Assembly: GCF_964355755.1 (NCBI RefSeq)
Contig: NC_092673.1
Span: forward strand, 14,637,001-14,701,000
DNA: 64,000 nucleotides
From: Antedon mediterranea
Lineage: Eukaryota > Echinodermata > Crinoidea > Comatulida > Antedonidae
Direction: 5' to 3'
Shown: positions 42,199-63,075 of the stretch, piece by piece
Numbering within the stretch: the first letter of the stretch is position 1
How the letters are laid out: each line of letters starts with the position of its first letter
The notes under the pieces: model-generated
Database searches by the model: none
Told to the model about the DNA's origin: nothing
The model's input: only the letters and a program-made list of their open reading frames with translations
Program-made: the position numbers and the translations under genes

Positions 42199-42270
42199 GG
42201 TTTCGTAGTGTAGTGGTTGTCAAGTCTGCTTAACACGCAGAAGGTCCCGGTTCGAGCCCTGGCGAAACCT
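42199..42270 (+). tRNA. tRNA-Val(AAC)
   Basis: Duplicate of 41641-41712 but with the normal B box gttcgag. GGTTTCG/CGAAACC pairs fully; anticodon AAC. 72 nt, T5 follows. Confidence 0.78.
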
Positions 42271-42784
42271 ATTTTTCTTTCACTTTATGGTGAAATATAC
42301 TGTATACTTAATATGATATAGAGTATATCTCGTTTTATTACTCGGTGTACCTGAGTCTAGGACTCTCTCATCTTTTCCTCTTCTTCTTCCATCCGGACAC
42401 TATTGAGCAAAAAGTGCGATTTATAAAGTACTACTCCTCCCTTATTCGTTGTAGTATTGAGCTCGGATTTAGCATGAATATACTACAGGGACATGTCCTC
42501 AAAGCTATAGAGCCGGATTTTTTAATTTCAAACCGGATGCAGCCATATCACGTCTCGAAGATGATACCGTATAGCCGTATTTGGTAGCGCGGTTATTGAT
42601 GTGTATGTGACGTTACATCCGGTCTTATGACGTCATTACAGCTTCTTTCGCTGTACCCCGAGTATTGCACATTCGTGCTTGTTTTACTAAGATTTTGAAC
42701 TACTGAATACATTTTATCACAACAATACTGGTCACAATATAAACAGTAATAAAATCTCTACTGGATTCGTGTAATTGTATAGAT

Positions 42785-42857
42785 GGGGAACTAGCTCAGA
42801 TGATAGAGCGCTCGCTTCGCATATGAGAGTTACCGGGATCAATGCCCGGGTTCTCCA
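42785..42857 (+). tRNA. tRNA-Ala(CGC), unit A2
   Basis: TTCGCAT loop; one anticodon-stem mismatch (C:A) and a D-loop change. G3:U70 kept. Confidence 0.65.
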
Positions 42858-42999
42858 AAAATTATGGTCAAAGTTTATTACCGGTACTGTTACAATTTTT
42901 GCTAAGATTTTAAACTACTATATATATTTTATCGCAACAATACTGGTGACAATACGAATAGTAACAACATATCTACTGGATTTGTGTAATTGTATAGAT

Positions 43000-43072
43000 G
43001 GGGAACTAGCTCAGATGGTAGAGCGCTCGCTTAGCATGTGAGAGGTACCGGGATCAATGCCCGGGTTCTCCA
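43000..43072 (+). tRNA. tRNA-Ala(AGC), unit A3, intact
   Basis: Perfect consensus unit: GGGGAAC/GTTCTCC acceptor, GCTC/GAGC, CTCGC/GTGAG, CCGGG/CCCGG; G3:U70 identity pair; anticodon AGC. Confidence 0.9.
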
Positions 43073-43214
43073 ATAATTTTGGTTAAAGTTTAATACCGGT
43101 ACTGTTACATTTTTTGCTGAGATTTTAGACTACTATATATATTTTGTCGCCACAATACTGGTGACAATATGAACAGTAAAAAAATATCTACTGGATTCGT
43201 GTAATTGTATAGAT

Positions 43215-43287
43215 GGGGAACTAGCTCAGATGGTAGAGCGCTCGCTTAGCATGTGAGATGTACAGGGATCAATGCCCGGGTTCTCCA
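43215..43287 (+). tRNA. tRNA-Ala(AGC), unit A4
   Basis: As consensus except variable loop atgta and one T-stem mismatch (cagg). Confidence 0.75.
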
Positions 43288-43426
43288 ATAATGTTCGTTA
43301 AAGTTTATTTCCGGTACTGTTACATTTTTTCCTGAGATTTTAAACTACTGTATATATTTTATCGCAACAATACAAGTGACAATATGAACAGTAATAAAAT
43401 ATCTACTTGTTTCGTGCAATATAGAT

Positions 43427-43499
43427 GGGGATCTAGCTCAGATGGTAGAGCGCTCGCATTGCATGTGAGAGGTACCGGGATCAATGCCCGGGTTCCCAA
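43427..43499 (+). tRNA. tRNA-Ala(TGC)-like, unit A5, degenerate
   Basis: GGGGATC start and ggttccca end give two acceptor mismatches; anticodon loop ATTGCAT. Probably a pseudogene. Confidence 0.55.
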
Positions 43500-43639
43500 A
43501 ATAATTTTGGGCAAAGTTTATTTCCGGTACTGTTACATTTTTTCCTGAGATTTTAAACTACTGTATATATTTTATCGCAACAATACAAGTGACAATATGA
43601 ACAGTAATAAAATATCTACTTGTTTCGTGCAATATAGAT

Positions 43640-43712
43640 GGGGATCTAGCTCAGATGGTAGAGCGCTCGCTTAGCATGTGAGAGTAACCGGGATCAATGC
43701 CCGGGTTCTCCA
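43640..43712 (+). tRNA. tRNA-Ala(AGC), unit A6
   Basis: GGGGATC gives one acceptor mismatch; variable loop agtaa; the rest is consensus. Confidence 0.65.
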
Positions 43713-43854
43713 ATAATGTTGGTTAAAGTTTATTTCCGGTATTGTTACATTTTTGGCTGAGATTTTTAACTACTATATATATTTTACCGCAACAATACTG
43801 GTGACAATATGAACAGTAATAAAATAGTTACTGATTTCTTGTAATTCTACATAC

Positions 43855-43927
43855 GGGGAACTAGCTCAGATGGTAGAGCGCTCGCTTAGCATGTTTGAGG
43901 TACCGAGATCAATGCCCGGGTTCTCCA
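43855..43927 (+). tRNA. tRNA-Ala(AGC)-like, unit A7, degenerate
   Basis: Anticodon stem 3' side is gtttg, breaking pairing; T stem ccgag. Preceded by the tctacatacg spacer variant. Confidence 0.5.
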
Positions 43928-44068
43928 ATAATGTTGGTTAAAGTTTATTTCCGGTACTGTTATATTTTTCCTGAGATTTTAAACTAATTTATATATTTTA
44001 TCGCAACAATACTGGTGACAATATGCACAGTAACAAAATAGCTACTGGATTCATGTAATTGTATAGAT

Positions 44069-44141
44069 GGGGAACTAGCTCAGATGGTAGAGCGCTCGCT
44101 TTGCATGTGAAAGGAACCGGGATCAATGCACGTGTTCTCCA
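44069..44141 (+). tRNA. tRNA-Ala(TGC)-like, unit A8, degenerate
   Basis: T arm reads ccgggatcaatgcacgt, disrupting the stem; gtgaa on anticodon stem. Probably a pseudogene. Confidence 0.5.
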
Positions 44142-44278
44142 ATAGTGTTGGGTAAAGTTTATTTCCGGTACTGTTACATTTTTCATGAGATTTTAAACTA
44201 ATGTGTATATTTTATTGCAACAATACTGGTGACAATATGAACAGTAACAAAATAGCTAATTCATGTAATTGTATAGAT

Positions 44279-44354
44279 GGGAACTAGCTCAGATGGTAGA
44301 GCGCTCGCTTTGCATGTGAGAGGTACCGACCGGGATCAATGTCCGGGTTCTCCA
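44279..44354 (+). tRNA. tRNA-Ala(TGC)-like, unit A9, degenerate
   Basis: Starts with only three G and has a four-base duplication in the T arm (accgaccggg). Last unit before the duplication junction. Confidence 0.5.
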
Positions 44355-44419
44355 ATAATGTTCGTTAAAGTTTATTTCCGGAAGACACATTACCATTTAA
44401 AAATATAAATATTGTACTC

Positions 44420-46065
44420 ATGTTGATATTTTTGTTTCACTTTATATTACAGATAGCACCATTTATAGTCCGACCACTTTGTCATATTTTTAACGTATCC
44501 ATTTTTACTGGAATTTTTCCTACAGCACTTAAAATAGCTAAAATTATCCCTATTTATAAAAAAGATGCCACATTATTTCTAACTATCGTCGGATCGGACA
44601 TCGTTAATCTATATAATAGGCTCATTGATTTTTTAAACACTAATGATATGGTTTTCGTAAAGAACATTCAACTGACCTAGCATTACTAGATATCTGCAAC
44701 AAAATCTTCTCTGCTAAATCTAAAAAAACACACCGTTGGAGTCTTTATAGATTTATCGAAAGCCTTCGACACTATTAATCATACCATTATTTAAAAATAT
44801 ATAAACTTGAACATTATGGCATTAGAGGACTCTCTCTTCTAGTATTATCAAATTATCTTTACGATAGAAAACAGTTTACATATTTTAATTTACTTACAGT
44901 ACTTGCCTGTAAACTGCGGGGTACTACCATGTAAATGATATCTGAGTTATTAAATTATATATTAGGCCTATGTGCTGATGATACAAATATGTTTTTTCCA
45001 TAAAAATATTAATACACTTTTTGAAACACTTAACAGGGAATTACTGTATGTCTCAGATTGGTTCAAGACTAATAAACTATCGTTGAATATGGATATTTAT
45101 TTTTATATTTTTTTATATTTCGCAAGTGACTGAAGACACGTCGAGGAAATAATAATTTAAAAATCAAAATTGATAATCTTTTGATTAAAGAAAAACAACA
45201 TTTTCTTGGAATCACAATTGACACCAAAATGAACAGGAAGCAGCAATTTCTAAAATATGTGTGGTGTCAATGAATATGGGGGTAATTTTACCAACAAATA
45301 TTCTTTTTTCATTTTATAATACCATAGTTCTTCCATGTTTGTGGTATTGTAACTAATTGTTATAGAGAACTGTTACAATGCCCATTGACTAATACGGAAA
45401 CAACAAAGTTGGACAATCTCTTTAAATTACAGAAAAAGCGCTTCATAGGCCTATTTGTTCTAAATCAACTTATCTAGCCCAAGCACTTTTTTCTAAATAT
45501 AAAACATTAAATATATTTGATATCAATAGTCTGCAATCTCCCTTGTTTATATACAAATACGAAAAAAATAAACTCCCAAATCATTTAATAACTACTTTAT
45601 GAAAGACAGTCATGGTCATAATACACGCAATTCAAATGATTATCTTTTAACTAAATGTACAAATAATTTGATCAAGAACTCTATTAAATACCATGGAGCT
45701 AAATTATGGAATCCATGTAGATATTAAAACTTCAAATTTAAATTAGTATACAATAACTATTTACTTTCTAGATATGATGAACGTTAAATATATATTTTAT
45801 AAGACTAGTTAAGATCGAAAATAGAAATCGTAGCTTTGTTTGTAATTTTGTTTTTTCGTATTTAATGTTATATCTTGGGGTGGGTCAAACTTAAAGTCTT
45901 TCTGACTTATATGACTCTCCCCCCACATGATTGAACTACTTTTTATTGTATTTATCTGCAATTTCATTTATTAACAGATTAGTTTAACATTATGTCATTG
46001 TGTATATCATGTATTTTATAATATTGTGGAAATGAATTGAAATTGAATTATTATTGAATAAAATG
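44420..46065 (+). pseudogene. Decayed LINE (non-LTR reverse transcriptase), fuller copy
   Basis: Frames read IAPFIVRPLCHIFNVSIFTG, FPTALKIAKIIPIYKKDA, then after a shift FIDLSKAFDTINH (RT motif A region, about 44730), and later LYVSDWFKTNK. Stops and shifts throughout. It ends in the aattgaaattgaattattattg tail near 46060. The internal part is what copy 1 deleted. Confidence 0.78.
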
Positions 46066-47404
46066 ACATTAAGACACAGGTCTTCGTGTTCGTGTGGATC
46101 TGTTGTCACAAATAATTTAAACAGTAAGCTTTTCAGTGACGTATACGGAACATTTAGAGAATTTCCCCAGCGATTTTCCATACTTGTGGTAATTTTGATT
46201 ACCGGATTTCGTATAGACAGTGAAATAGTACTATAGGCGTTTTTCTGTTACGATTTCAGGACAAAATGTAGGCATTTATAAACTGCAAACATGTGCATGG
46301 AATATACTGTGTAGGCATACTGTTATCATTGCATAACGTAATAGATAGACGAGGTGGTACAATTATCTAGATATTACCGATCATACTGGTGTAATAGAAA
46401 CTAACAAATAATATTTCCGGCTTTCCGTCATTTTTCGGCTTCAACCAAAAATCAGTAGTATTATTTAAATTTCTTCAAATATTATCATTATACATAAAAT
46501 ACATTATCATTATACATAAAAGGTTCAGTTAAATGTTTAGTTTGAAATTGCACCCGATTCATATAAACATTGCAGCAGGGAGTTTTGAACTCCCTGATTG
46601 CAGTAGGCCTATACCTCAAGGAGGTCATTATATAGGCCTACAGTGGCTAACGATTCAATACCTTAAAAACTTGTTGGCTTGATAGAACAAATCTGCAGTA
46701 ATAAATCGATAAAACGTTGCCAGTGGAAAGAATGTTATGTTAACAACGGCAATAGATTTTCCGAAAAGTACATCATTTGTCTCAAGTCTGTAAACAGTAG
46801 GGAGAATTTTGATTTAGCCTTGTCAGGAGAGACCTCTGGCATATCCAGATACTTTAAATGTTCATAAACACAACCTTAGATGAGTACATTTCAGTATCCG
46901 GATAAACTCATGTATCACCCAGCCAGTGAAGTGCATTGGCAATCATTAGATAAATCAAGCAGCGATTAATAGGCCTAATATCCTTGGCGTGCTCACTGAA
47001 AATCCTGGATATTCGAAATTTTATGATGAGTTTTGTCTGTAAACTGGATTTATAACTGCCAATAGCATTAGACCAATCTGTCTCGCTATGTAATGGCTAA
47101 TTTCTGATGTATCCTTTTCAATTGTTTCTGTGAAATACCGAAAATCAATTATTAAATTACCACTTGCTGATATGAAGTCACAACCGCTCAATAAAAAATG
47201 CTCCGATTAGAGAGAACAAAATTAGTATTTCAATTCGGTTCAGCGACTTATAGAATCTGTGTCAATTTTGAGTAAGGTACTTATTGCCAAGTACAGTAGC
47301 TATGAGCATGGTACACATGTAAATTATAAGTATGAATATTTGTATATTTGTATATAATTGTATAGCAGTAAACACATTGCGTTTGATTATATAATTTAAC
47401 TCTG

Positions 47405-48600
47405 TCATACCATGGAGACTCCATGGTCATATATTATGGTAGCGATGCATAAAAGTACCACAGCTATTATCAATACGATCCAAAAACATCGATTGTAAAG
47501 AGAGCTTCTTTGCATAGACTGTACGTGATTTAAGGTTTCATTTGATATTGTTGTAGCATGTGCTCTGTTACCTGATTGATAGATTTCTATATTCGTTGTA
47601 TTATCAAAATAGAAACACGTCAAATAGTGTAGTAAAATACTTACAGCCAAAATGTTATACTTTTTGGAAAATGGTCGGAGAATATTCTCAGTAATGTTTG
47701 AATAGAAGTATGTACAAATATTTGGTTGTAGAACCATAAATCGCCAGAATTTTTAATTAACGGATTTAAACGTTTCAGTTCCTGACATATTCAGGGTTTA
47801 TTTCAAGTGCAATACAACTTCTTTCTCAAGCTGAGAATATTTGCAGTCATAGTTAAGATGAATGCATATTAAAATAAAGAGCAGTTCTTGAAACAAGAAC
47901 TTCTGAAACTTTTGAACAACTTGACATGAAAAATCGCAAATAGCACCTGCATACAGTTTGATACTATAAAGATAATTTGTCGATATTTCGATGTGTTTTT
48001 AGAAAGTAAAGCCACACATCTACTATTAACTACGATGTATGTCATTGATAGAACTACATTGCAAATACCAAATATATAAACACTTATGATCGGAAGACGC
48101 TTGGTTGCTAATTTCTCTTGACGGATGGTATTGCAGAAGTGGCTAACGTTCAGTGGAAGTCGTGTTTTCGAAGACATCGGATAAGGTCTAACTCATGCCA
48201 TAGTCTCTTTTTTTCGCAGAATGTATAGGCCTATCATCATTACTATTGAAACCGAGTAACTAAGAATACGAATCCAATCTGTAGTATCCTCATGTACAGT
48301 ATAACGACTACTACTGTAGACAGCAAATATAAAAGCAGTGTAAATTGAAATGATACAGAAATATACAATCATTGCTGTAACACAACCATCTTCAACTAAA
48401 CAGCCATCACTTTCTCGATCAGCAATGCTTCATTGCATGATGTTAATGTTGCATTTAAAGAAGACATCACCTCTGCGTCACTTTCCATTAACCAGTTTCG
48501 ATTTTCTGCCACCGTTGCATTCGCATAAAAGTTATCATACTCTCGACCTCTTTCATCACCTGACACACACATATACATAGTATTCTGCAGATAAGACAGA
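47405..48600 (-). pseudogene. Membrane-protein remnant, copy 2 (possibly otopetrin-like)
   Basis: Minus-strand frames 48578-48396, 48177-47869 and 47737-47405 correspond to the three frames of copy 1. Here the N-terminal frame is broken (a T lost near 48430, A7 instead of A9 near 48212, a deletion near the start codon). The same donor gct|gtaagt follows RPFSKKYNILA near 47645. Non-functional; a tail of a former gene. Confidence 0.4.
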
Positions 48601-48957
48601 TCTCCCTGCTGATCTTCTTCATCAAAATTCAGCTTTCCTCAAAATTTCGATTTCCTTCTAGTATTTCGTTTGAGGAAGAAGACAATATTGTAAGACGTTT
48701 CCACGTAGGAAATGTTTCACATATATCAAAATAATGGGTTGTGTTTACACCCTTTGATATAAAGTTTACGATACACAACGTATATTAGTTCTGAAAAGAA
48801 CTGTTGAGTTTCTTGATATGTTGAGTTTTATCAATATGCTTTGATGAGGAAAGACTTACAAAAGGCATCTTCTATCGATATAAGGATTTAGTCTTTTAGA
48901 CACAATTTGTCAGGAATTCAATTCAATTAGACACACCTACAAAACAGTATAATAATA

Positions 48958-49990
48958 TTTGTTTTATTTGTAGAATTCTTGTTACAAGCAAAACGTTTTT
49001 AAAAATAAGTAAACAAGAAGTCTATCAAATAAAAACCAGTAAATGTTTACTTATTTTAAGAAAAGTATTGCTTGAAACAAGAATTCTATCAAATTAAAAT
49101 TCGTAAATTCTTACTTATATTGGGAAAAAAATTGCTTGAAACAAGAATTCTATAAAATATAAATCCTTAAAAATTTATTTTAAGAACGATAAATGAATAC
49201 TCATTTTAAGTAGGCCTAATATTTTACTTAAATAAATAAATTCAAGAATGTTATAAAACATAATATTAATATTAACAATACTGTTATTTTCATTAAGAAC
49301 TACAATTTACATGACATTAGGTACAATAATATATACAACTTCTTTAAAACAAACTTGTTTTTATTAATAATAAAATGCCATCAAAAGAAAACTTAAAAAC
49401 ATTAAAATGGTAAAATACAAATTTCGTAAAATTCTTCTCCCGCACCTGTGCTTTAAACTATTAGGTGTCTTTAAATTTATTAATGTATACTAATGATGAT
49501 TCAACAGCCTTTGTCAAGTGTACAGGTGTGTCTTCATTACAAATCACTAACTGTTAAAGGATAGTGAGGCCTACTTCTTTTCATTTTTGATAATCGAAAT
49601 CCAGAAGGTAAAAAGTGGAGAGGAGAGTAACTAGAGCCTCATCTAATTTTGCTTTCTTTGTAGTTAGAATTGTTTGCTCAACTTTAATGTAGGCCATTTC
49701 TGTGTCCAAAAGCAATACCGGCATATTACCTGATCGGCGTGAAGACCAGGATTCTGGATCTTTATTCATGTTCCTAAACATGAAAAGAGATTATTATAGT
49801 TTTAGTTATTACTGTATTTAAAATATGTGTAACATCATCAACTAATTGGGTACGGTGTGGTTTTAGAGTCCTATATCTTGGGCGGTAAACACAAAAACAT
49901 GACGCAATATTAGAACGGTGGTAAGAATAACTTTTCATTATAAGACATAAGGGTGGGTGGAATATGCATTTGAACTTTTTAATCACAAAT
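48958..49990. other. AT-rich spacer with a short tandem repeat and a possible exon
   Basis: About 48965-49190 contains three diverged ~85 bp repeats carrying acaagaattctatcaaat. The rest is AT-rich. A possible terminal exon lies at 49581-49773 (-). Confidence 0.5.
49581..49773 (-). CDS. Possible terminal exon of an unknown protein
   Basis: Acceptor tttcatgtttag before GAACATGAATAAAG. The frame continues MPVLLLDTEMAYIKVEQTIL and ALVTLLSTFYLLDFDYQK, then stops. The 'L-x-x-LLSTFYLLDFDYQ' ending recalls C-termini of uncharacterised, often transposon-linked proteins of marine animals; no name can be given. No upstream exon was found. Confidence 0.3.
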
Positions 49991-50345
49991 CTCGGGTGGA
50001 AACAAGGTAAAAGGTCAAAAGTTGTATTTCCTGCCAACTTTCAAAAATATGTTTCATTAAATCTTATATAAATATGGATATTCTGAACAATTTATGACAA
50101 AAATAAAGTCTTTATGACCAGGGGTTACCGAGATATGACCCTCGGGTGGAAATAATGTCAAAGGTCAAAAGTGATATTTTTCATCAAATTTCAAAAATAT
50201 TTTTCATTAAAGCTAATATAAATATAGATACTCCGAACAATTTAAAACAAAAATAAAATCGTTATGACCATTGGTTACCGAGATATGACCCTTATGTAAA
50301 AACGAGGTCAAAGGTCAAAAGTCGTATTTCCGGTCATTTTGTATG
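49985..50345. repeat. 'aaaggtcaaaagt' minisatellite, three ~125 bp units
   Basis: Units contain ggtcaaaggtcaaaagt, ttcaaaaatatgtttcatta, gaacaatttatgacaaaaat, gaccaggggttaccgagata. Related units recur at 54240-54400 and 56420-56720. Confidence 0.85.
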
Positions 50346-51076
50346 AAAATGTTTTATTATAGTACTTAACTGCGTTAAGCTGGATAACTTCTTTTTTATC
50401 AAATCGTGTACAGCGTGCTGTATATAATAGTACAGGCTATATGTGACATTTATCCTATGTAACCTTGAAAAAATTCTAATAAAAGGTCTTTTGGTATTTT
50501 CTTGTAGCTTTAGGTGTGAATAAATACCAAACAATTTTTGCAGCCTTCTAGTTGCTGCGTTAGTGAGATATTGAGGGTCAAAGGTCAGTGACCTTTTTGT
50601 GGCATTTGATGGCTCATAACTCCTCAATTCCTGGGTTTAAAAAGACAACTGTGGTGTCTACATCTATGTTTTAGTGGTCAAACAACAAAATAAAGTTTTT
50701 GCAAATTTCGGGTTACTTGTGCCATTGGTCAGATAGTCGGGTCAAAGGTCATTGACCTTTATTCATTACTAACTACTACTAGTTTAGGACCTGGGTAAGA
50801 TTTGTATGCATTCAATTTAGGAGAGAATATCTCAACTGTTATAGGATAATTAGACCCCAAGGAACAACATGGGATATGTGCCCCCGTTATCGGGGGCGAA
50901 CATGCCCAAAATCGGAGGCAAAGGTTAGAAATGTGTGGTTGTTATATCTCGACAACCAAATCATACAGATTTGCTTTTGGTGTCAAATTGTTCAGAAAAT
51001 ACATATTTATATTCAGTCTAACACAACGTTTACCCCAAAAAATGACCGGAAATGCTTTTACTGACCTTTGACCAAA

Positions 51077-52788
51077 CTTACTTACTTAATGTCATCCCAC
51101 TATTAAGTGGGTGCCATGATAATTTGTCTCCACACATCTCTATCAAGCATGCTCTTTCTCAGTTCACTCAGGTCTAGTTTGGTATCTTTCAACAGAATGT
51201 CGAGCGAAGTCAGTTGAGGTCTTCCCTCTTTCCTTTTCTCTTCTGGTTCCCAAAGGAGAACTCTTGAGGCAGGCTCAGAGCTTCTCATAACATGACCGGC
51301 AAGGCCCATGCGACGTCTTTGAATGATGGTCGTAAGACGGGGAAGGTTGGCATATAGTGTCTTGTTGGTGGCGTGTGAGGACCATGGGATGTTTTGGACT
51401 TTCCTCAGCATGCGGGTGTATGCTCCATCCAATGATTTTGAGAGCGATGAAGTAAGACTCCATGTCTCACAGCCGTAAAGAAGAATGGCTTCAACTGTTG
51501 ACTTAAAGAGGCGGATTTTTGTGGACTTGTTGATACGAGATGCCCATATTTTTGAAAGACTGTTCAGCGCACCCCATGCTTGACCAAGTCTTGCTTCGAC
51601 ATCATGGTTAGTGGAAGAACAGTAGCTTCCGAGGTACTTGAAATCCTCTACTTGTTCTATTGCTGATCCATCCAGTGCGAGAGTTATAGAAGGTGATGAG
51701 GGGTTTAAATGTATGAATTGGGTCTTCTTGATGTTTAAGTATAAACCTATAGCTTGTGTGGCTTGTTGAATTCTGTGCAGTAGATTTTCGGCAGCATGTA
51801 TGGAATCTTCAAGAATGGCGATGTCATCGGCAAAGTCCAGGTCTGGTAGTACTTCAGCTGGATGTCTTCTACTACGGCGGAGGGTGAGACCGTCTGATGA
51901 TGTAGTTGCTGATCGCACTACATAGTCAAGGCAGACAATAAACAAGAATGGAGCAAGAGGGTCTCATGGAACTACGCCAGAGTCGATGTTGAAGCAATCA
52001 GTCTCACCATCTGGAGTCAGGACAACTGCTGATGTATTGATATACATTACTCTGATGGCTTCTACAATTTTATGAGGGATGCCGTATGCTAAGAGGATCT
52101 TCATCATGATGTTGCGATTGATGGAATCGAAGGCTTTGCGAAAGTCAATAAAGATAATGACTGCCTCTTTGTGATGGTTCTTAACCTCTTCAACAATTCT
52201 CCTCAGTGCAAGAATGTGCGTAGTTGTTGATCGTGCCTGACGAAAGCCATTCTGGTTGGGGCGTAAAACTTCATTAATCACAGGACGTATCCTATTTAAA
52301 ATCAGGCGATTGTAGATCTTTGCAGCCAATTGTGATAATGAAATACCCCTGTAGTTATCTGGTTTTGAAAGATCACCTTTTTTCGGGATATGAACGAAAT
52401 TCCCCATTCTGATGGCCTGTTTCCATCAAGAATTTGATTGCAGAAAGAAGTGAGAGCTTTCTGGGTGCCAGGTAATTTCCATATTTCGATGGGAAGACCG
52501 TCAAGACCAGGTGCTTTGCCAGATTTTATCTGTTTGCAGGCAATTGACACCTCAGCCTCGGAGAACCTCTCGGAGCTTATCTGGTGGTTAAGTTGAAGAT
52601 TTTGACGATATCCATGTCATCTACCACTGAAGTCTCCACCGATAGTAGTTTGTGGAAGTGAGTTTTCCATGCTAGGAGACGATCCTCTCCCATGATGCAG
52701 GCACTTTGAGATCTCTTCCCTGAGAGTTGTTTGACAAGTTGCCATGCAGATCTTAAGCTGTTGGCCGATGCTGGTTGATCGAAAAAAA
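51077..52788 (-). mobile_element. 5'-truncated LINE with 8 bp target duplication
   Basis: TGACCAAA flanks both ends (51069-51076, 52789-52796) and the uninterrupted site survives in the opposite arm near 54240. On the minus strand: KSGKAPGLDGLPIEIWKLPG, then after a frameshift IPKKGDLSKPDNYRGISL, IIFIDFRKAFDSINR, a stop at the GVVP motif (normally GVPQGD), APFLFIVCLDYV, the FADD active-site motif LPDLDFADDIAIL, and a C-terminal YLGSYCSSTNHDVEARLGQAW and WSSHATNKTLYANL block. It ends in a short TAAG repeat. One frameshift and at least one stop make it inactive. Confidence 0.9.
51103..51945 (-). CDS. LINE reverse transcriptase C-terminal half
   Basis: 280 residues: RT palm with DFADDIAI (about residue 36), thumb, and C-terminal domain ending DLSELRKSMLDRDVWRQIIM. 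It is the longest intact part of the LINE at 51077-52788 but lacks motif A and the nuclease. Not expected to be functional alone. Confidence 0.85.
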   Translation of the reverse strand: MFIVCLDYVVRSATTSSDGLTLRRSRRHPAEVLPDLDFADDIAILEDSIHAAENLLHRIQQATQAIGLYLNIKKTQFIHLNPSSPSITLALDGSAIEQVEDFKYLGSYCSSTNHDVEARLGQAWGALNSLSKIWASRINKSTKIRLFKSTVEAILLYGCETWSLTSSLSKSLDGAYTRMLRKVQNIPWSSHATNKTLYANLPRLTTIIQRRRMGLAGHVMRSSEPASRVLLWEPEEKRKEGRPQLTSLDILLKDTKLDLSELRKSMLDRDVWRQIIMAPT

Positions 52789-52949
52789 TGACCAAAAAAA
52801 AAACACATTTTCTGGTTAAATTATTCTTTAAAATGTCAATGGAGACACTGTATGGTATAAAATGGAAGCATATACAATATGCTACCCATTGCTACCCAAC
52901 TTGTATTGAAATTTTTAATTAGGAATATAACTTTATGGAAAATGTGCAT

Positions 52950-53960: not shown

Positions 53961-54859
53961 TTTGGTCTACCAAATAAAGAACTTAATAAACTACAACTAA
54001 ATCTTTTCTTTTTTATACCAAATATTTCATTACAACACTAGAATTATTTCACCTAAAATAAACTTACATTAATTTATACTCATTTTTGTCTAAATTTAAT
54101 AAAATATGCATATTTTCCAAAAATAACATCACATAATTAAATACAAGTTGGGTAGCAATGGGTAGCATATTGTATATGCTTTCATTTGATACCATACAGT
54201 GTGTCCATTGACATTTTAAATATTTAACCCGAAAATGTGTTTTTTGGTCAAAGGTCAGTAAAAGCATTTCCGGTCATTTTTTTGGGTAAAAGTTGTGTTA
54301 GACCGAATATAAATATGTATATTCTGAACAATTTGACACCAAAAGCAAATCTGTATGACAAGTGGTTGTCGAGATATAAGAACCACACATTTCTAACCCT
54401 TGACCCCGATTTTGGGCATTTTCGCCCCAGATAACGAATTTGACACATATCCCATATTGTTCCTTGTGGTCAAATTATCCTATAACAGTTGAGATATTCT
54501 CTCCTAAATTGAATGCATACAAATCTTACTCAGGTCCTACACTAGCAGTAGTTATTAATGAATAAAGGTCAATGACCTTTGACCCGACTATCTGACCAAT
54601 GGCAGAAGTAACCCGAAATTTGCAAAAACTTTATTTTGTTGTTTGACCACTAAAACATAGATGTAGAAACCACATTTGTCTTTTTAAACCCAGGAGTTGA
54701 GTTATGAACCATCAAATGCCACAAAAAGGTCACTGACCTTCGACCCTCAATACCTCTCTAACGCAGCAACTAGAAGGCTGCAAAAATTTTTTGGTAATTA
54801 TTGACACCTAAAGCTACAAGAAAATACCAAAAGACCTTTTATTAGAATTTTTTCAAGGT

Positions 54860-56312
54860 CAAACCATATATAGCCTCTACTATAAAGGCAAATCTTCAGA
54901 CTGGTTGCCTGTTAAATCAGGCGTGCCGCAAGGGTCTGTTTTGGGTCCGTTGCTTTTTGTCATGTATGCTAATGACCTTCATCTATACATTACATCTAGT
55001 ATTATACAATACGCTGATGATGTGTTCATTTTTCGCAATGTTTGCACTAGGGATTCAGACCTAAATATTCAAAAAGATCTAACGTCTATTGATTTTTGGG
55101 CAAAATAAAATTGCCTCAAACTGAATCCCAATAAATGCAAATCTATGCGACTTACTTGGAGAAGAGGATATCCCAAACCTATATACAGCATTTCTGATAC
55201 ACTTTTAGATTGTAATGATTCATTAAACATTTTAGGCTGCTCAATACAAAGTAACTTGTCATGGGACAATCAAGTTCAGGATGCAGTATCAAATTGTAAC
55301 CGTCTTATTGGTCTTATACGGTTAATCACATCTAATGCCCCTAGTAGTGTAGCTCTCCATCTTTATAAGACACTTGTGCTGCCATGCTTATATTATTGTT
55401 CTCCGGTGTGGTGGGTGTACCGTAAAAAACATATAAATATGCTAGAATCCGTTCAGAGGAGAGCTACCTGCATGATCTTGAAGAAAGGTTATTTAGATCA
55501 ACATTATATAGATAGAAGAAAGGAGCTAGGTCTAATGTCAGTAGAGAATAGGCGTGATTTCTTAAACATGACATTCATTGCCAATATAATAATTTCTCCA
55601 CGATCTGATTTTATGAGTGAATATGTTGATTCTTTTTTAGTTAATAATCGACACCTAGATATACTCACCTTTCATCATGGTAGAGCTCGTACTGATGCTT
55701 TTAAATACTCAGGCATAGTACGGTTTCCTAAAATGTTTTCAGAACTTGGTGCTACGATCAGAAACAATCTTATTGAAGAGTCGTTTTTTAAGTTTAAACA
55801 CAGTTTAAAGCAACATTTTATAGATTTTTAACTTTTCATATTTTTATTAACATGATTGTACCTACTTTGAATTTTTTAACTTTTTAACTTTATACAATCA
55901 GAATTTTCAACTTTTATAAAATCAGAATTTTTAACTTTTATACAATCAGAATTTAACTTTTATACAATCAGAATTTTTAACTTTTATACATTCATAATTT
56001 TTAACTTTTATTCAATCAGAATTTTTAACTTTTATACAATCAGAATTTTTAACTTTTACACAATCAGATTGTTCAGATAGCAATTGCATTTTTATAACAC
56101 TTTTGTTAACTTTTATTATACCTTATTTTTCTATGTATTTTTCTAAATTTGTTAAATGTCGGTTTTATTGTATCGTTCAAGTTGACAGGGGCTGGTCAAG
56201 CACATCACAAGATGACAGTTTTATACTTTTGCTTTTCCGCTACTCTCCTGTTATACTTATATGTTTGTTTTTTTGCTATGTAGAAAGATTGAAAATAAAA
56301 AATAAAATAAAT
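54860..56312 (+). mobile_element. LINE 3' half with minisatellite 3' UTR
   Basis: Frame 54905-55108: VKSGVPQGSVLGPLLFVMYA and IIQYADDVFIFR (active site). A stop at 55107 (TAA where tryptophan-lysine context ends) separates it from frame 55145-55831, the thumb and C-terminal domain (ILGCSIQSNLSWDNQVQ, SVQRRATCMILKKGYLD, GLMSVENRRDFLNMTFIA). A 24 bp tandem repeat occupies 55870-56080, and the end near 56312 is aaaataaaaaataaaataaa. 5'-truncated and dead. Confidence 0.87.
55870..56080 (+). repeat. 24 bp tandem repeat in LINE 3' UTR
   Basis: About eight units of aacttttatacaatcagaat with small variation, directly after the LINE stop codon. Confidence 0.85.
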
Positions 56313-56319
56313 AGGAAAG

Positions 56320-57420
56320 TGCATATTCTGAACAATATAAGACCAAAATCAAACCTCTATGATCACTCGTTGTCAAGATATAGGTCGAATACAAAAATAA
56401 CCTAAATTATTGCGAAAATCGTTATGCAATAATGTCAAAGGTCAAAAATGATATTTCCCGTCAAATTTCAAAAATATGTTCCATTAAAGCGAATATAAAT
56501 ATGGATATTCTGAACAATTTAAGACAAAAATAAAATCTTTATGACCAGGGGTTACCAAGATATGACCCTTATGTAAAAACAAGGTCAAAGGTCAAAAGTG
56601 GCATTTACGGCCATTTTGAACAAAAACTTTTCATTATAGTACATAGAAATGTGCATATTCTGAACAATTTAAGACCAAAATCAGTCTATCTATGATCAGT
56701 CTTTGTCAAGTATTGTCTATATTTATGATTTTGATAAATCCAAGATGGCCACCAAAATGGCCCCCAAAAAACCCCATGGGACAATATTTCGTCTTGGGAA
56801 CATCAAAAAATGTTAATTACATATATTCAGGATTACAAAAATGTACATTAAAATAATACATCATGAGGGTGCACGGTAACCCCTCCTTCATAATATCACT
56901 TTATGAATTTTAAAACACTAAAAAAAGGCAACTGGTCGCGTCGTTGAAGTTTTAATAATTACACCTATCCTTTGAACAGAATTAATTGCATAAATCACGG
57001 CGAGCTCAGTGAGTTAACTCATTTTAGGCTTATCCCAGGGCTATTGTGCATATAGTTCTCTGTGCCCTGGGACCTGTGAATACCTGGACCACGCCCTTAG
57101 TTATGTAGCATGCCTAGCCCATCAAACAATTATTACGCAATAAACATTAAGCTACATGCTTTGTAATATGAGTAATATGTAGGCCTACACACATATATAA
57201 GTTTAATTTATAGTGAAATAATTAGATATCAAAATAATATTTTTCATACAATAATATCGAGGATTTATATAGCGCCTAATGTTGTGAAACCTCTAAGCGC
57301 TAAACATTATTACCCCAGTCATTTTTTGGATCAAACGCGTTATGGATACATCCAAAATTGAATTGACACATGAAATAAATAATGTCGTACTGTAGTTTTT
57401 GGTATAACAAGTGAGCATCT
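56320..57420. other. Minisatellite remnants and spacer
   Basis: 56420-56720 holds further units of the aaaggtcaaaagt family (ccaggggttaccaagatatg). Then ccaagatggccaccaaaatg and AT-rich spacer with no gene up to the tRNA array. Confidence 0.55.
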
Positions 57421-57522
57421 TCATCTGAGATTTTTAACTAATGTATATATTTAATCGCAACAATACTGGTGACAATATGAACAGTAACAAAATAGCTACT
57501 GGATTCGTGTAAGTGTATAGAT

Positions 57523-57595
57523 GAGGAACTAGCTCAGATGTTAGAGCGCTCGCTTTGCATGTGAAAGGTACCGGGATCAATGCCCGGGTTCTCCA
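57523..57595 (+). tRNA. tRNA-Ala(TGC), unit B1
   Basis: GAGGAAC acceptor (one mismatch); D-loop gatgtta; anticodon stem gtgaa. TGC. Confidence 0.6.
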
Positions 57596-57738
57596 ATAAT
57601 GTTGGTTAAATTTTATTTCCGGTATTGTTACATTTTTTTGCTGAGATTTTTAACTACTATATATATTTTATCTCAACGATACTGGTGACAATATGAACCG
57701 TAATAAAATAGCTACTGGTTTCTTGTAATTCTACATAC

Positions 57739-57811
57739 GTTGAACTAGCTCAGATGGTAGAGCGCTCGCTTAGCATGTGAGAGGTACCGGGATCAATGCC
57801 CGGTTTCTCCA
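57739..57811 (+). tRNA. tRNA-Ala(AGC)-like, unit B2
   Basis: GTTGAAC acceptor variant with tttctcc, several mismatches; other arms consensus; AGC. Confidence 0.5.
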
Positions 57812-57950
57812 ATAATGTTGTTTAAAGTTTATTTCCGGTACTGTTACATTTTTTGAGATTTTAAACTTCTGTATATATTTTATCGGAACAATACTGGTGA
57901 CAATATGAAGATTAATAAAATATCTACTGGTTTCGTGCAATTGTATAGAA

Positions 57951-58023
57951 GGGGAACTAGCTCAGATGGTAGAGCGCTCGCTTTGCATGTGAGAGGTACC
58001 GGGATCAATGCCCGGTTTCTCCA
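57951..58023 (+). tRNA. tRNA-Ala(TGC), unit B3
   Basis: Consensus except one acceptor mismatch (tttctcc). TGC. Confidence 0.78.
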
Positions 58024-58162
58024 ATAATGTTGGTTAAAGTTTACTTCCGGTACTGTTACATTTTTTGAGATTTTAAACGACTGTATACATTTTATCGGAA
58101 CAATACTGGTGACAATATGAAGATTAATAAAATATCTACTGGTTTCGTATAATTGTATAGAT

Positions 58163-58234
58163 GGGGAACTAGCTCAAATGGTAGAGCGCTCGCTTCGCAT
58201 GTGAGAGGTACGGGATCAATGCCCGGGTTCTCCA
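58163..58234 (+). tRNA. tRNA-Ala(CGC), unit B4
   Basis: One base lost at the T stem (ggtacggg); D-loop aaatggta. CGC. Confidence 0.65.
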
Positions 58235-58377
58235 ATAATGTTGTTTAAAGTTTATTACCGGTACCATTACATTTTTTTGATGAGATTTTTAACTAATGTA
58301 TATATTTCATCGTAACAATACTGGTGACAATATGAAAAGTAACAAGATAGCTACTGGATTCTTGTAATTGTATAGAT

Positions 58378-58450
58378 GGGGAACTAGCTCAGATGGTAGA
58401 GCGCTCTCTTTGCATGTGAGAGGTACCGGGATAAATGCGCGGGTTCTCCA
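58378..58450 (+). tRNA. tRNA-Ala(TGC)-like, unit B5
   Basis: ctctc in the anticodon stem and ataaatgcgcgg in the T arm weaken folding. TGC. Confidence 0.5.
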
Positions 58451-58589
58451 ATAATGTTGGTTTAAGTTTATTTCCGGTACTGTTACATTTTTTGAGATTT
58501 TAAACTACTGTATATATTTTTTCGGAACAATACTGGTGACAATATGAAGATTAATAAAATATCTACTGGTTTCGTGCAATTGTATAGAA

Positions 58590-58662
58590 GGGGAACTAGC
58601 TAAGATGGTAGAGAGCTCGCTTTGCATGTGAGAGGTACCGGGATCAATGCCCGGGTTCTCCA
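58590..58662 (+). tRNA. tRNA-Ala(TGC)-like, unit B6
   Basis: D stem changes (gcta/gaga). Other arms consensus. TGC. Confidence 0.6.
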
Positions 58663-58800
58663 ATAATGTAGGTTAAAGTTTAGTCCGGTAGTGTCACATT
58701 TTGTTAGATTTTAAACTACTGTATATATTTTATCGCAACAATACTGGTGACAATATGAAGATTAATAAAATATCTACTGGTTTTGTATAATTGTATAGAT

Positions 58801-58873
58801 GGGGAACTAGCTCAAATGGTAGAGCGCTCGCTTCGCATGTGAGAGGTACCGGGATCAATGCCCGGTTTCTCCA
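58801..58873 (+). tRNA. tRNA-Ala(CGC), unit B7
   Basis: Consensus with aaatggta D-loop and one acceptor mismatch (tttctcc). CGC. Confidence 0.75.
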
Positions 58874-59016
58874 ATAATGTTGGTTAAAGTTTATTACCGG
58901 TCCCGTTACATTTTTTTGATGAGATTTTTAACTACTATATATATTTTATCTCAACAATACTGGTGACAATATGAACCGTAATAAAGTAGCTACTGGTTTC
59001 TTGTAATTCTACATAC

Positions 59017-59089
59017 GTTGAACTGGCTCAGATGGTAGAGCGCTCGCTTAGCATGTGAGAGGTACCGGGATCAATGCCCGGTTTCTCCA
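59017..59089 (+). tRNA. tRNA-Ala(AGC)-like, unit B8
   Basis: GTTGAACTGG start, tttctcc end; acceptor weakened. AGC. Same variant as B2 and B11. Confidence 0.5.
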
Positions 59090-59228
59090 ATAATGTTGGT
59101 TATAGTTTATTTCCGGTACTGTTACATTTTTTGAGATTTTAAACGACTGTATATATTTTATCGGAACAATACTGGTGACAATATGAAGATTAATAAAATA
59201 TCTACTGGTTTCGTGCAATTGTATGGAT

Positions 59229-59301
59229 GGGGAACTAGCTCAGATGGTAGAGCGCTCGCTTTGCATGTGAGAGGTACCAAGACCAATGCCCTGGTTCTCC
59301 A
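59229..59301 (+). tRNA. tRNA-Ala(TGC)-like, unit B9
   Basis: T arm ccaagaccaatgccctg is damaged; other arms consensus. TGC. Confidence 0.55.
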
Positions 59302-59439
59302 ATAATGTTGGTTAAAGTTTATTTCCGGTCTGTCACATTTTTTGAGATTTTAAACTACTGTATATATTTCATCGTGACAATACTGGTGACAATATGAAAA
59401 GTAACAAGATAGCTACTGGATTCTTGTAATTGTATAGAT

Positions 59440-59512
59440 GGGGAACTAGCTCAAATGGTAGAGCGCTCGCTTCGCATGTGAGAGGTACCGGGATCAATGC
59501 CCGGGTTCTCCA
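59440..59512 (+). tRNA. tRNA-Ala(CGC), unit B10, intact
   Basis: All stems pair; D-loop aaatggta; G3:U70; anticodon CGC in TTCGCAT. Confidence 0.87.
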
Positions 59513-59649
59513 ATAATGTTGGTTAAAGTTTATTACCGTTACATTTTTTTGATGAGATTTGTAACTACTATATATATTTTATCTCAACAATACTGGTGAC
59601 AATATGAACCGTAATAAAATAGCTACTGGTTTCTTGTAATTCTACATAC

Positions 59650-59722
59650 GTTGAACTAGCTCAGATGGTAGAGCGCTCGCTTAGCATGTGAGAGGTACCG
59701 GGATCAATGCCCGGTTTCTCCA
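59650..59722 (+). tRNA. tRNA-Ala(AGC)-like, unit B11
   Basis: GTTGAAC/tttctcc acceptor variant as in B2 and B8. AGC. Confidence 0.5.
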
Positions 59723-59861
59723 ATAATGTTGGTTAAAGTTTATTTCCGGTACTGTTACATTTTTTGAGATTTTAAACGACTGTATATATTTTATCGGAAC
59801 AATACTGGTGACAATATAAAGATTAATAAAATATCTACTGGTTTCGTGCAATTGTATAGAT

Positions 59862-59934
59862 GGGGAACTAGCTCAGATGGTAGAGCGCTCGCTTTGCATG
59901 TGAGAGGTACCGGGATCAATGCCCGGGTTCTTCA
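59862..59934 (+). tRNA. tRNA-Ala(TGC), unit B12
   Basis: Consensus except G:U at the second acceptor pair (ttcttca). TGC. Confidence 0.82.
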
Positions 59935-60073
59935 ATAATGTTGGTTAAAGTTTATTTCCGTTACTGTTACATTTTTTTAGATTTTAAACTTCTGTATATA
60001 TTTTATCGGAACAATACTGGTGACAATATGAAGATTAATAAAATATCTACTGGTTTTGTGTAATTTTAAATAC

Positions 60074-60147
60074 GGGGAACTAGCTCAGATGTTAGAGCGC
60101 TCGTTTCGCGTTTGAGAGGTACCGGGATCAATGCCCGGGGTTCTCCA
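60074..60147 (+). tRNA. tRNA-Ala(CGC)-like, unit B13
   Basis: Loop TTCGCGT, stem weak (ctcgt/ttgag), one extra G before the 3' acceptor strand. Preceded by tttaaatacg. Confidence 0.55.
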
Positions 60148-60290
60148 ATAATGTTGGTTAAAGTTTATTACCGGTACTGTTACATTTTTTTGATGAGATT
60201 TTTTACTAATGTATATATTTCATCGCAACAATACTGGTGACAATATGAAAAGTAACAAAATAGCTACTGGATTCGTGTAAGTGTATAGAT

Positions 60291-60363
60291 GAGGAACTAG
60301 CTCAGATGGTAGAGCGCTCGCTTTGCATGTGAGAGGTACCGGGATCAATGCCCGGGTTCTCCA
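60291..60363 (+). tRNA. tRNA-Ala(TGC), unit B14
   Basis: GAGGAAC acceptor (one mismatch); all other arms consensus. TGC. Confidence 0.78.
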
Positions 60364-60506
60364 ATAATGTTGGTTAAAGTTTATTTCCGGTATTGTTACA
60401 TATTTTGCTGAGATTTTTAACTACTAAATATATTTTATTGCAACAATATTGGTGACAATATGAACAGTAACAAAATAGCTACTGGATTCGTGTAATTTTA
60501 TTGATG

Positions 60507-60579
60507 GGGGAACTAGCTCAGATGGTAGAATGCTCGCGTAGCATGTGAGAGGTACCGGGATCAATGCCCGGGTTCTCCA
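60507..60579 (+). tRNA. tRNA-Ala(AGC)-like, unit B15
   Basis: D stem gaat, anticodon loop GTAGCAT. Preceded by a fifth G. AGC. Confidence 0.58.
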
Positions 60580-60723
60580 ATAGCGTAATGTTGGTTAAAG
60601 TTTATTTCCGGTACTGTTACATTTTTTGAGATTTTAAACTACTGTATATATTTTATCGCAACAATACTGGTGACAATATGAAGATTAATAAAATATCTAC
60701 TGGTTTCGTGCAATTGTATAGAA

Positions 60724-60796
60724 GGGGAACTAGCTCAGATGGTAGAGTGCTCGCTTAGCATGTGGGAGGTACCGGGATCAATGCCCGAGTTCTCCA
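60724..60796 (+). tRNA. tRNA-Ala(AGC), unit B16
   Basis: Small changes (gagtg, gtggg, cccgag). AGC. Confidence 0.65.
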
Positions 60797-60939
60797 ATAA
60801 TGTTGGGTAAAGTTTATTTCCGGTATTGTTACATTTTTTTGCTGAGATTTTTAACTACTATATATATTTTATCGCAACAACACTGGTGACAATATGAAGA
60901 TTTATAAAATATCTACTGGTTTTGTGTAATTTTAAATAC

Positions 60940-61013
60940 GGGGAACTAGCTCAGATGTTAGAGCGCTCGTTTCGCGTTTGAGAGGTACCGGGATCAATGC
61001 CCGGGGTTCTCCA
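60940..61013 (+). tRNA. tRNA-Ala(CGC)-like, unit B17
   Basis: Same variant as B13 (TTCGCGT, extra G, tttaaatacg spacer). Confidence 0.55.
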
Positions 61014-61156
61014 ATAATGTTGGTTAAAGTTTATTACCGGTACTGTTACATTTTTTTAATGAGATTTTTACCTAATGTATATATTTCATCGCAACAATAC
61101 TGGTGACAATATGAAAAGTAACAAAATAGCTACTGGATTCGTGTAAGTGTATAGAT

Positions 61157-61231
61157 GAGGAACTAGCTCAGATGGTAGAGCGCTCGCTTTTTGCATGTGA
61201 GAGGTACCGGGATCAATGCCCGGGTTCTCCA
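61157..61231 (+). tRNA. tRNA-Ala(TGC)-like, unit B18
   Basis: Two extra T in the anticodon loop (gctttttgcat), so a nine-base loop; GAGGAAC start. Probably non-functional. Confidence 0.45.
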
Positions 61232-61374
61232 ATAATGTTGGTTAAAGTTTATTTCCGGTATTGTTACATATTTTGCTGAGATTTTTAACTACTATATATA
61301 TTTTATGGCAACAATATTGGTGACAATATGAACAGTAACAAAATAGCTACTGGATTCGTGTAATTGTATTGATG

Positions 61375-61447
61375 GGGGAACTAGCTCAGATGGTAGAATG
61401 CTCGCTTAGCATGTGAGAGGTACCGGGATCAATGCCCGGGTTCTCCA
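61375..61447 (+). tRNA. tRNA-Ala(AGC), unit B19
   Basis: D stem gaat as in B15; other arms consensus; extra leading G. AGC. Confidence 0.68.
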
Positions 61448-61586
61448 ATAATGTTGGTTAAAGTTTATTTCCGGTACTGTCAAATTTTTTGAGATTTTAA
61501 ACTACTGTATATATTCTATCGGAACAATACTGGTGACAATATGAAGATTAATAAAATATCTACTGGTTTCGTGCAATTGTATATAT

Positions 61587-61658
61587 TGGGAACTAGCTCA
61601 GATGGTAGAGCGCTCGCTTCGCATGTGAGAGGTACCGGGATCAATGCCCGGGTTTCCA
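61587..61658 (+). tRNA. tRNA-Ala(CGC)-like, unit B20
   Basis: TGGGAAC start and gtttcca end; one base short. CGC. Confidence 0.5.
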
Positions 61659-61802
61659 ATAATGTTGGTTAAAGTTTATTACCGGTACTGTTACATGTTT
61701 TTGATGAGATTTTTAACTAATGTATATATTTCATCGAAACAATACTGGTGACAAGATGAACAGTAACAAAATAGCTACTGGATTGGTGTAATTGTATTGA
61801 TG

Positions 61803-61875
61803 GGGGAACTAGCTCAGATGGTAGAGCGCTCGCTTTGCATGTGAGAGGTACCGGGATCAATGCCCGGGTTCTCCA
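61803..61875 (+). tRNA. tRNA-Ala(TGC), unit B21, intact
   Basis: Every stem consensus, G3:U70, anticodon TGC in TTTGCAT. Confidence 0.9.
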
Positions 61876-62014
61876 ATATTGTTGGTTAAAGTTTATTTCC
61901 GGTACTGTTACATTTTTTGAGATTTCAAACTACTGTATATATTTTATCGGAACAATACTGGTGACAATATGAAGATTAATAAAATATCTACTGGTTTCGT
62001 GCAATTGTATAGAT

Positions 62015-62086
62015 GGGGAACTAGCTCAGATGGTAGAGCGCTCGCTTCGCATGTGAGAGGTACCGGGATCAATGCCCGGTTCTCCA
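62015..62086 (+). tRNA. tRNA-Ala(CGC), unit B22
   Basis: One G missing between T stem and acceptor (cccggttctcc); otherwise consensus. CGC. Confidence 0.68.
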
Positions 62087-62229
62087 ATAATGTTGGTTAA
62101 AGTTTATTTCCGGTATTGTTACATTTTTTTGCTGAGATTTTTAACTACTATATATATTTTATCGCAACAATACTGGTGACAATATGAAGATTAATAAAAT
62201 ATCTACTGGTTTTGTGCAATTTTACATAC

Positions 62230-62302
62230 GAGGAACTAGCTCAGATGGTAGAGCGCTCGTTTCGCATTTGAGAGGTACCGGGATCAATGCCCGGGTTCTC
62301 CA
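62230..62302 (+). tRNA. tRNA-Ala(CGC)-like, unit B23
   Basis: GAGGAAC start; stem ctcgt/ttgag weak. Preceded by tttacatacg. CGC. Confidence 0.58.
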
Positions 62303-62445
62303 ATAATGTTGGTTAAAGTTTATTTCCGGTACTGTTACATGTTTTTCATGAGATTTTTAACTAATGTATATATTTCATCGCAACAATACTGGTGACAATA
62401 TAAACAGTAACAAAATAGCTACTGGATTTGTGTAAGTGTATAGAT

Positions 62446-62518
62446 GAGGAACTAGCTCAGATGGTAGAGCGCTCGCTTTGCATGTGAGAGGTACCGGGAT
62501 CAATACCCGGGTTCTCCA
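62446..62518 (+). tRNA. tRNA-Ala(TGC), unit B24
   Basis: GAGGAAC acceptor (one mismatch); T loop atcaata. TGC. Confidence 0.72.
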
Positions 62519-62661
62519 ATAATGTTGGTTAAAGTTTATTTCCGGTATTGTTACATATTTTACTGAGATTTTTAACTACTAAATATATTTTATTGCAACA
62601 ATATTGGTGACAATATGAACAGTAATAAAATAGCTACTGGATTCGTGTAATTGTATTGATG

Positions 62662-62734
62662 GGGGAACTAGCTCAGATGGTAGAGCGCTCGCTTAGCATG
62701 TGAGAGGTACCGGGATCAATGCCCGGGTTCTCCA
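62662..62734 (+). tRNA. tRNA-Ala(AGC), unit B25, intact
   Basis: Every stem consensus, G3:U70, anticodon AGC; extra leading G in spacer. Confidence 0.9.
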
Positions 62735-62873
62735 ATAATGTTGGTTAAAGTTTAATTCCGGTACTGTTACATTTTTTGAGATTTTAAACTACTGCATATA
62801 TTTTATCGCAACAATACTGGTGACAATATAAAGATTAATAAAATATCTACTGGTTTCGTGCAAATGTATATAT

Positions 62874-62946
62874 GGGGAACTAGCTCAGATGGTAGAGCGC
62901 TCGCTTAGCATGTGAGAGGTATCGGGATCAATGCCCGGGTTCTCCA
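62874..62946 (+). tRNA. tRNA-Ala(AGC), unit B26
   Basis: Consensus except a G:U in the T stem (tcggg). AGC. Last unit of the array. Confidence 0.86.
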
Positions 62947-63075
62947 ATAATGTTGGTTAAAGTTTATTTCCGGTACTGTTACATGTTTTTCATGAGATTT
63001 TTAACTAATGTATATATTTCATCGAAACAATACTGGCGACAATATGAACAGCAACAAAATAGCTACTGGATTCGT

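Follow-up and report, generated by a model that had tools for sequence, protein, structure and literature searches.

Why does a crinoid genome carry one alanine transfer RNA (tRNA) gene in hundreds of tandem copies, with three anticodons and with intact and damaged copies intermingled, and do these copies work as genes? The question is raised by a stretch of 64,000 bases in the genome of Antedon mediterranea (354 Mb, 18 contigs), C4:14637001-14701000, which is called the window below and holds part of a large tRNA-Ala array. Judging from sequence, we conclude with fair confidence that a tRNA-Ala(AGC) gene was amplified into a tandem array with satellite-like turnover, in which some lineages have been kept intact and others have spread as pseudogenes.

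Organization and extent of the array

The window contains 35 tRNA-Ala units, all on the plus strand: one at 40977, eight at 42785-44354 (left block, 42682-44381) and 26 at 57523-62946 (right block, 57426-63079). An earlier note on this DNA had placed them at the same positions. The 35 copies are 92-100% identical to one tRNA, which rules out chance. Within both blocks the units are arranged in tandem as had been described, with a start-to-start distance of 209-219 bases, a narrower range than the 205-240 bases given before. Tandem Repeats Finder scored the left block at 2550 and the right block at 8474-8524. The gathering score of the Rfam tRNA model was passed by 33 of the 35 units (32.7-54.6 bits), the misses being units 42785 and 60507, and ARAGORN called 26 of them. 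A decayed 36th copy lies apart on the plus strand at 7938-8165, with a tRNA part (7995-8057) at 76.7% identity.

These two blocks had been taken for the whole array, and its continuation past the right end of the window had been missed. Blastn revealed a cluster of 373 tRNA-Ala units in 13 blocks, all on the plus strand, at C4 14,628,372-15,026,152 (398 kb), which extends 325 kb past the window; the count covers the stretches of C4 fetched within 14.627-15.034 Mb, with 14.711-14.910 and 14.918-14.940 Mb left out. The largest block has 190 units. One unit of about 215 bases consists of a 73-base tRNA and a 142-base spacer, and 351 of 370 successive unit starts are 195-235 bases apart, in the same orientation. 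Genome-wide pattern searches, whose counts of repeats are lower bounds, point to the same place: the tRNA core has 178 forward matches without mismatch, all in the cluster stretches; a second core pattern, with up to 3 mismatches allowed, has 349 forward ones, of which 345 lie there; and a spacer pattern gave 316 forward and no reverse matches.

The units are similar but mostly not identical. When every third unit was sampled, mean identity was 0.884, without a strong excess between neighbours. If the consensus columns are compared, 287 of the 354 complete units are distinct. Spacer lineages reappear along the array. Satellite-like behaviour had been proposed in the earlier note and is supported here. 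Repeated unit orders had raised the suspicion of a regular higher-order repeat, but lag analysis gave only weak peaks: one block has peaks of 0.915 at lag 11 and 0.922 at lag 18, and in the main block none was clear. The blocks that end at C4:14961598 and C4:15010151 share the same junction and the same outer flank, suggesting that a larger stretch, non-array DNA included, was duplicated.

Intact and damaged copies

A unit was counted as intact by a strict test if it had all 21 stem pairs, no insertion or deletion, an NGC anticodon and T33. By this test, 115 of the 373 units are intact (TGC 62, AGC 29, CGC 24), and 80 of the 373 differ from the array consensus at no position other than base 34. 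The consensus itself has all 21 stem pairs, including G3:U70, a pair that has a role in alanine identity; the complete cloverleaf with an NGC anticodon is present in only part of the units. Perfect array units score 51.8-54.6 bits with Rfam, compared with 48.9 for AGC copies dispersed elsewhere in the genome. In the window, six of the 35 units pass: one of eight in the left block (43000) and five of 26 in the right block (59440, 59862, 61803, 62662 and 62874). Three of them (43000, 61803 and 62662) are the array consensus except for base 34. The mixture of intact and damaged units that had been noticed in the window thus holds, and the four units singled out as perfect cloverleaves (43000, 59440, 61803 and 62662) are all among the six.

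Several damaged forms recur. One form, with changes at positions 17, 27, 39 and 52, has 26 copies that do not differ from each other at the 73 consensus positions; 25 of these copies also carry 3 extra bases. Another, with C63 changed, has 17 copies, and a third, lacking 13 bases of the T arm, has 15. Therefore, damaged genes have been multiplied together with good ones.

Wobble base and probable founder gene

The wobble base (base 34) can be read in 370 units: 140 have A, 136 have T, 94 have C and none has G; in the right block of the window, T is found in 10, A in 8 and C in 8 units. Of 352 pairs of neighbouring units, 64 have the same base 34, versus 119.6 +/- 9.0 after shuffling, and the anticodons are therefore interleaved. 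Among units with identical spacers, base 34 differs within 3 of 42 groups. Parsimony on a tree built without base 34 requires 39 changes at this base, compared with 6-24 at 31 other variable columns. Its retention index of 0.83 is ordinary, as other columns have 0.70-0.96; therefore, exchange between units explains the pattern as well as fresh mutation does. Positive selection on base 34 and selection against G34 were also considered and are unsupported beyond chance.

Outside the array, eight reverse-strand copies match the core exactly (loci L009-L011), and all eight are AGC. There are also 15 reverse-strand near matches to the second core pattern, and the nine among the matches listed are all AGC. 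Because the exact-core copies elsewhere are all AGC, the simplest reading is an AGC founder from which the array itself probably gave rise to TGC and CGC. Compared with the dispersed AGC copies, the acceptor stem of the array (GGGGAAC...GTTCTCC) has one two-sided pair change, G5:C68 to A5:U68.

These results suggest the following course of events. The founder would have been a tRNA-Ala(AGC) gene of the family that is also dispersed on C8, C9 and C4. Unequal exchange would have multiplied the units, and changes of the wobble base from A to T and C, plus defective tRNA variants, would have been multiplied together with them. Selection would keep the tRNA sequence in some lineages, while any single copy would be expendable. 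Since the tRNA sequence appears to be kept by selection in these lineages, the kept copies are probably transcribed by RNA polymerase III (Pol III) from the internal promoter and would add to the alanine tRNA pool.

Interruptions of the array

The 215-base register of the array resumes within 18 bases at 11 of 14 gaps (binomial P 8.5e-7) and within 7 bases at 8 of 14 (P 1.1e-6), both limits having been chosen after the offsets were known. Because the register resumes across most gaps, including the 13-kb gap of the window, the blocks are probably one former array that was later split by insertions. This agrees with the earlier proposal that the left and right blocks belonged together before a 13-kb insertion: the interruption at 44382-57425 (13,044 bases) carries reverse-transcriptase frames on both strands, and the array resumes 18 bases off register. 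The gaps out of register are a 31-kb gap at window 8166-39559 (offset -89), a 202-kb gap after 14.709 Mb (+48) and a 3.8-kb gap at 14.962 Mb (-78).

Two smaller interruptions flank the single unit at 40977. On its right lies an in-register insert (41090-42681, plus strand, offset -3) with four tRNA-Val-like copies at 41352, 41641, 41908 and 42199, found with ARAGORN, Rfam and blastn. These copies, located between units 40977 and 42785, had been overlooked before. ARAGORN calls AAC for three of the four (window 41352-42270), and by eye this 1.59-kb insert has inverted ACTCGGGGTAC ends. On the left, a Helitron-like insert of 1290 bases (39680-40969, minus strand) has a terminal palindrome ending in CTAG and TCTATATATAAA at its other end, and sits one base upstream of the tRNA 5' end. 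It divides one unit, whose 3' part is the single tRNA-Ala(AGC) at 40977-41049 (plus strand; ARAGORN, Rfam and blastn) and whose 5'-side spacer part, found by blastn with the consensus unit, is at 39560-39679 (plus strand; register offset -6 across the insert).

Helitrons have a terminal hairpin and a CTAG end placed between A and T, with the other end being TC after A. Three Helitron-like inserts are found in the array at the identical A|T, one base upstream of the tRNA 5' end (window 39680-40969, L004 3307-4633 and L004 6771-9328), and all three end with CTAG before T and begin with TCTATAT after A on the minus strand. With at most 1 mismatch, the terminal palindrome is matched 980 times in forward and 982 times in reverse orientation across the genome, and in 19 of 20 genome copies that were sampled the CTAG end is preceded by A as read on the plus strand. 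Over about 1 kb, the first insert is 84% alike to the third, and the second is without such likeness; therefore, at least two independent insertions occurred. Their register offsets are -6, -6 and -4. TATAGA flanks both sides in two of the three, and the third has TATATA and TATAGA; the flanking TATAGA could have arisen by a 6-base target duplication and need not be the TCTATA terminus of the element itself.

The shared position of the three inserts suggested a mobile element that targets tRNA genes. Dada transposons do so and were considered for these inserts (PMC3706591, seen in part). This idea was set aside, as repeated insertion at one site is likelier to reflect a sequence preference, namely for AATT followed by seven bases. 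In the array unit, AATT is separated by 7 bases from the A|T at which the inserts lie. Of 14 genome copies sampled from the CTAGATGG type, 11 carry AATT at a distance of 7-8 bases ahead of the insertion point (L032 is included on account of the AATT on its upstream side), and among the three that do not, L028 and L033 share a flank. For the CTAGAGGG type, which includes one of the three array inserts, the motif is present in only two of six sampled copies.

Other features of the window were also noted. Frames of a Gypsy-like long terminal repeat retroelement, with protease, reverse transcriptase, RNase H and integrase (Pfam), lie at 34753-38794; a 177-base tandem repeat of 4.6 copies lies at 12802-13620; and a frame with an RNase H1 N-terminal domain (Pfam PF01693) lies at 63299-64000, directly after the right block.

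Other tRNA-Ala genes and tRNA arrays of the genome

Pattern searches showed how the array relates to other alanine tRNA genes. The array had been considered as the sole source of TGC and CGC, because earlier patterns gave none elsewhere, the single match of one of them being an array unit; this was rejected when a pattern with a shorter D-loop found standard genes of both kinds on C5 and C6. No standard-type AGC gene was found genome-wide within 3 mismatches of one shorter-D-loop pattern, and therefore the AGC supply may rest on the array and its dispersed family. As the tRNA family search of the genome scored 63 of 35,912 candidates, there may be further tRNA-Ala genes.

Two lysine tRNA arrays were observed as well. 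A tRNA-Lys(TTT) tandem array lies at C8:23.58-23.67 Mb (L012), with a unit of about 175 bases, and all 26 ARAGORN calls in 6 kb are TTT. A tRNA-Lys(CTT) array at C3:8.10 Mb (L014) has a unit of about 146 bases, and 11 of 13 calls are CTT and two TTA. Among the few arrays of the genome that were inspected, only the alanine array has a three-way anticodon mix.

Constraint and function

The spacers provide a measure of relatedness that is separate from the tRNA. Seventeen spacer lineages of at least 3 units each were compared, and the analysis of lineages and rare variants kept 308 of the 354 complete units (46 with many mismatches or gaps were dropped). Seven of the 17 lineages have one tRNA consensus except for base 34, while their spacers differ by 3.6-12.2% (mean 8.0% over 21 pairs); at 8% divergence about 6 changes per tRNA pair would be expected if it were unconstrained, although these seven lineages were picked for likeness. 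Columns with a minor variant of at least 10% are 30 of 142 in the spacer and 7 of 73 in the tRNA (Fisher P 0.037). By eye, the internal promoter regions look intact in the consensus. A part of the array is likely to have a function. An apparent excess of mutation in the tRNA (4.51 against 2.76 per spacer column in 194 units) was considered and dropped. The difference became small after the 46 units were removed, and therefore transcription-linked mutation is not claimed.

The main competitor of this view is that the array is a non-functional satellite, selfish or neutral tandem DNA in which intact copies are left over because amplification was recent, with little tRNA made from them. We regard this as rather unlikely, but several results favor it and weigh against selection on the array. 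The 258 of 373 units that fail the strict test are the majority, and fixed changes of the tRNA are found in 10 of the 17 lineages, every one of which has one or more stem pairs broken. Rare variants are about equally frequent in both parts of the unit, with 4.00 per column in the spacer and 4.95 in the tRNA (P 0.04; 0.14 without CpG), and within the tRNA they are more frequent in stems (6.05 per column) than in loops (3.57). Thus, most single copies seem to be expendable. Recombination may explain much of the number of changes at base 34, and the absence of G34 is weak evidence, since the rates of rare variants predict only about 1-2 G. The array is also not needed for every anticodon: standard tRNA-Ala genes elsewhere, two TGC and one CGC, score 67.8-70.0 bits and have a T-run close behind, and there are eight dispersed AGC genes of the array's own family. 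The spacer T-run, which had been described as Pol III-like, lies far from the tRNA; the first run of four or more T begins 36-39 bases past it in 278 of 373 units, unlike the terminator position of the dispersed relatives at L009, where it begins at +3 to +7 in six of six copies. A distant T-run does not exclude transcription; the precursor, if made, would have a long 3' trailer, for which no stable fold was predicted. When three intact tRNAs were folded alone, the cloverleaf was the minimum-energy structure only for the CGC one, and the AGC and TGC ones folded otherwise in the D and anticodon arms. What speaks against a mere satellite is the unchanged tRNA consensus, except base 34, of the seven lineages with diverged spacers. 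Conversion tracts confined to the tRNA could mimic this lineage-level constraint. On balance, we prefer the amplified gene with some lineages kept intact.

Other explanations are less probable still. The array might be a working generator of isoacceptors that started from one AGC founder and continues to make and exchange TGC, CGC and AGC versions while the rest of the tRNA stays constant. Selection would then act on the anticodon proportions of the array as a whole and not on individual copies; we consider this improbable. By analogy with the silk gland of Bombyx, it might instead be a specialised set that, under regulation, supplies alanine tRNA to a tissue producing alanine-rich protein. 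The very high copy number for the tRNA of one amino acid, the acceptor stem unlike that of the dispersed genes and the clustered silk-gland tRNA-Ala genes of Bombyx, as cited in the part of PMC12308677 that was available, fit this idea. However, most copies are damaged, and the arrays of Lys TTT and Lys CTT mean that amplification is not peculiar to alanine, so that a specialised set is very doubtful. Long tandem repeats are difficult to assemble, and a repeat mis-assembled into many blocks would be an artefact; yet most complete units are distinct, no N was found in the fetched C4 stretches, and 11 of 14 junctions are in register, which leaves this explanation hardly credible. The copy number of the array may nevertheless be wrong.

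Comparison with known tRNA clusters

The earlier note called such a mixed array uncommon, which is partly right: animal tRNA clusters, including ones with mixed anticodons and pseudogenes, have been described (Bermudez-Santana 2010, PMC2888827; excerpts). According to these excerpts, 89% of tDNAs are clustered in Nematostella and 65% in zebrafish, and a figure legend describes tRNA-Arg with copies of tRNA-Thr (AGT or TGT) and two interspersed pseudogenes. Those clusters resemble the Antedon array in having many close tRNA genes and pseudogenes on the same strand. The Antedon array differs from what is described there in its regular 215-base unit, 373 copies for one amino acid, three wobble bases in similar numbers and multiplied damaged lineages. 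In Entamoeba, a tandem unit of tRNA and spacer is thought to be homogenised by concerted evolution, but Ala AGC, TGC and CGC are in separate array units, and no clear pseudogenes are reported in the available part of PMC2652664, whereas in Antedon the three are mixed in one array and many copies are damaged. The Ser-Tyr-Tyr cluster of Arabidopsis is also tandem, with sequence variants, tRNA-like pseudogenes and dispersed genes of the same kind; it serves two amino acids, and silencing and tissue-specific reactivation were measured there (PMC12308677, same part).

Changes of the first anticodon base within the tRNA genes of one amino acid are known as well. Rogers and Griffiths-Jones (2014, PMC3923123) reported 44 isoacceptor shifts across the surveyed genomes, 39 of them at the first anticodon base. 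As far as the accessible text of that paper goes, those shifts concern orthologous genes across related genomes, whereas many shifts or exchanges occurred inside one array in Antedon. The human tRNA repeat at 1q23.3 is likewise a variable-number tandem repeat that holds tRNA genes, but its unit is 7.3 kb (PMC4041453, in part), compared with 215 bases and a single tRNA here. Our literature search, with most subscription journals outside its coverage, found no array in which three alanine anticodons are mixed at such numbers. The Antedon array is thus an unusually rich but not unprecedented tandem tRNA gene array, as tandem and even mixed-anticodon clusters are known.

The array has two consequences. 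Counts of tRNA genes from such genomes can overstate the number of working genes, as only 115 of 373 copies are intact here. Furthermore, a single locus offers 370 copies with a readable wobble base, the spacers supply their family tree, and base 34 is the sole consensus difference among seven intact lineages. Anticodon shifting, the spread of pseudogenes and selection within a gene family thereby become countable in one genome.

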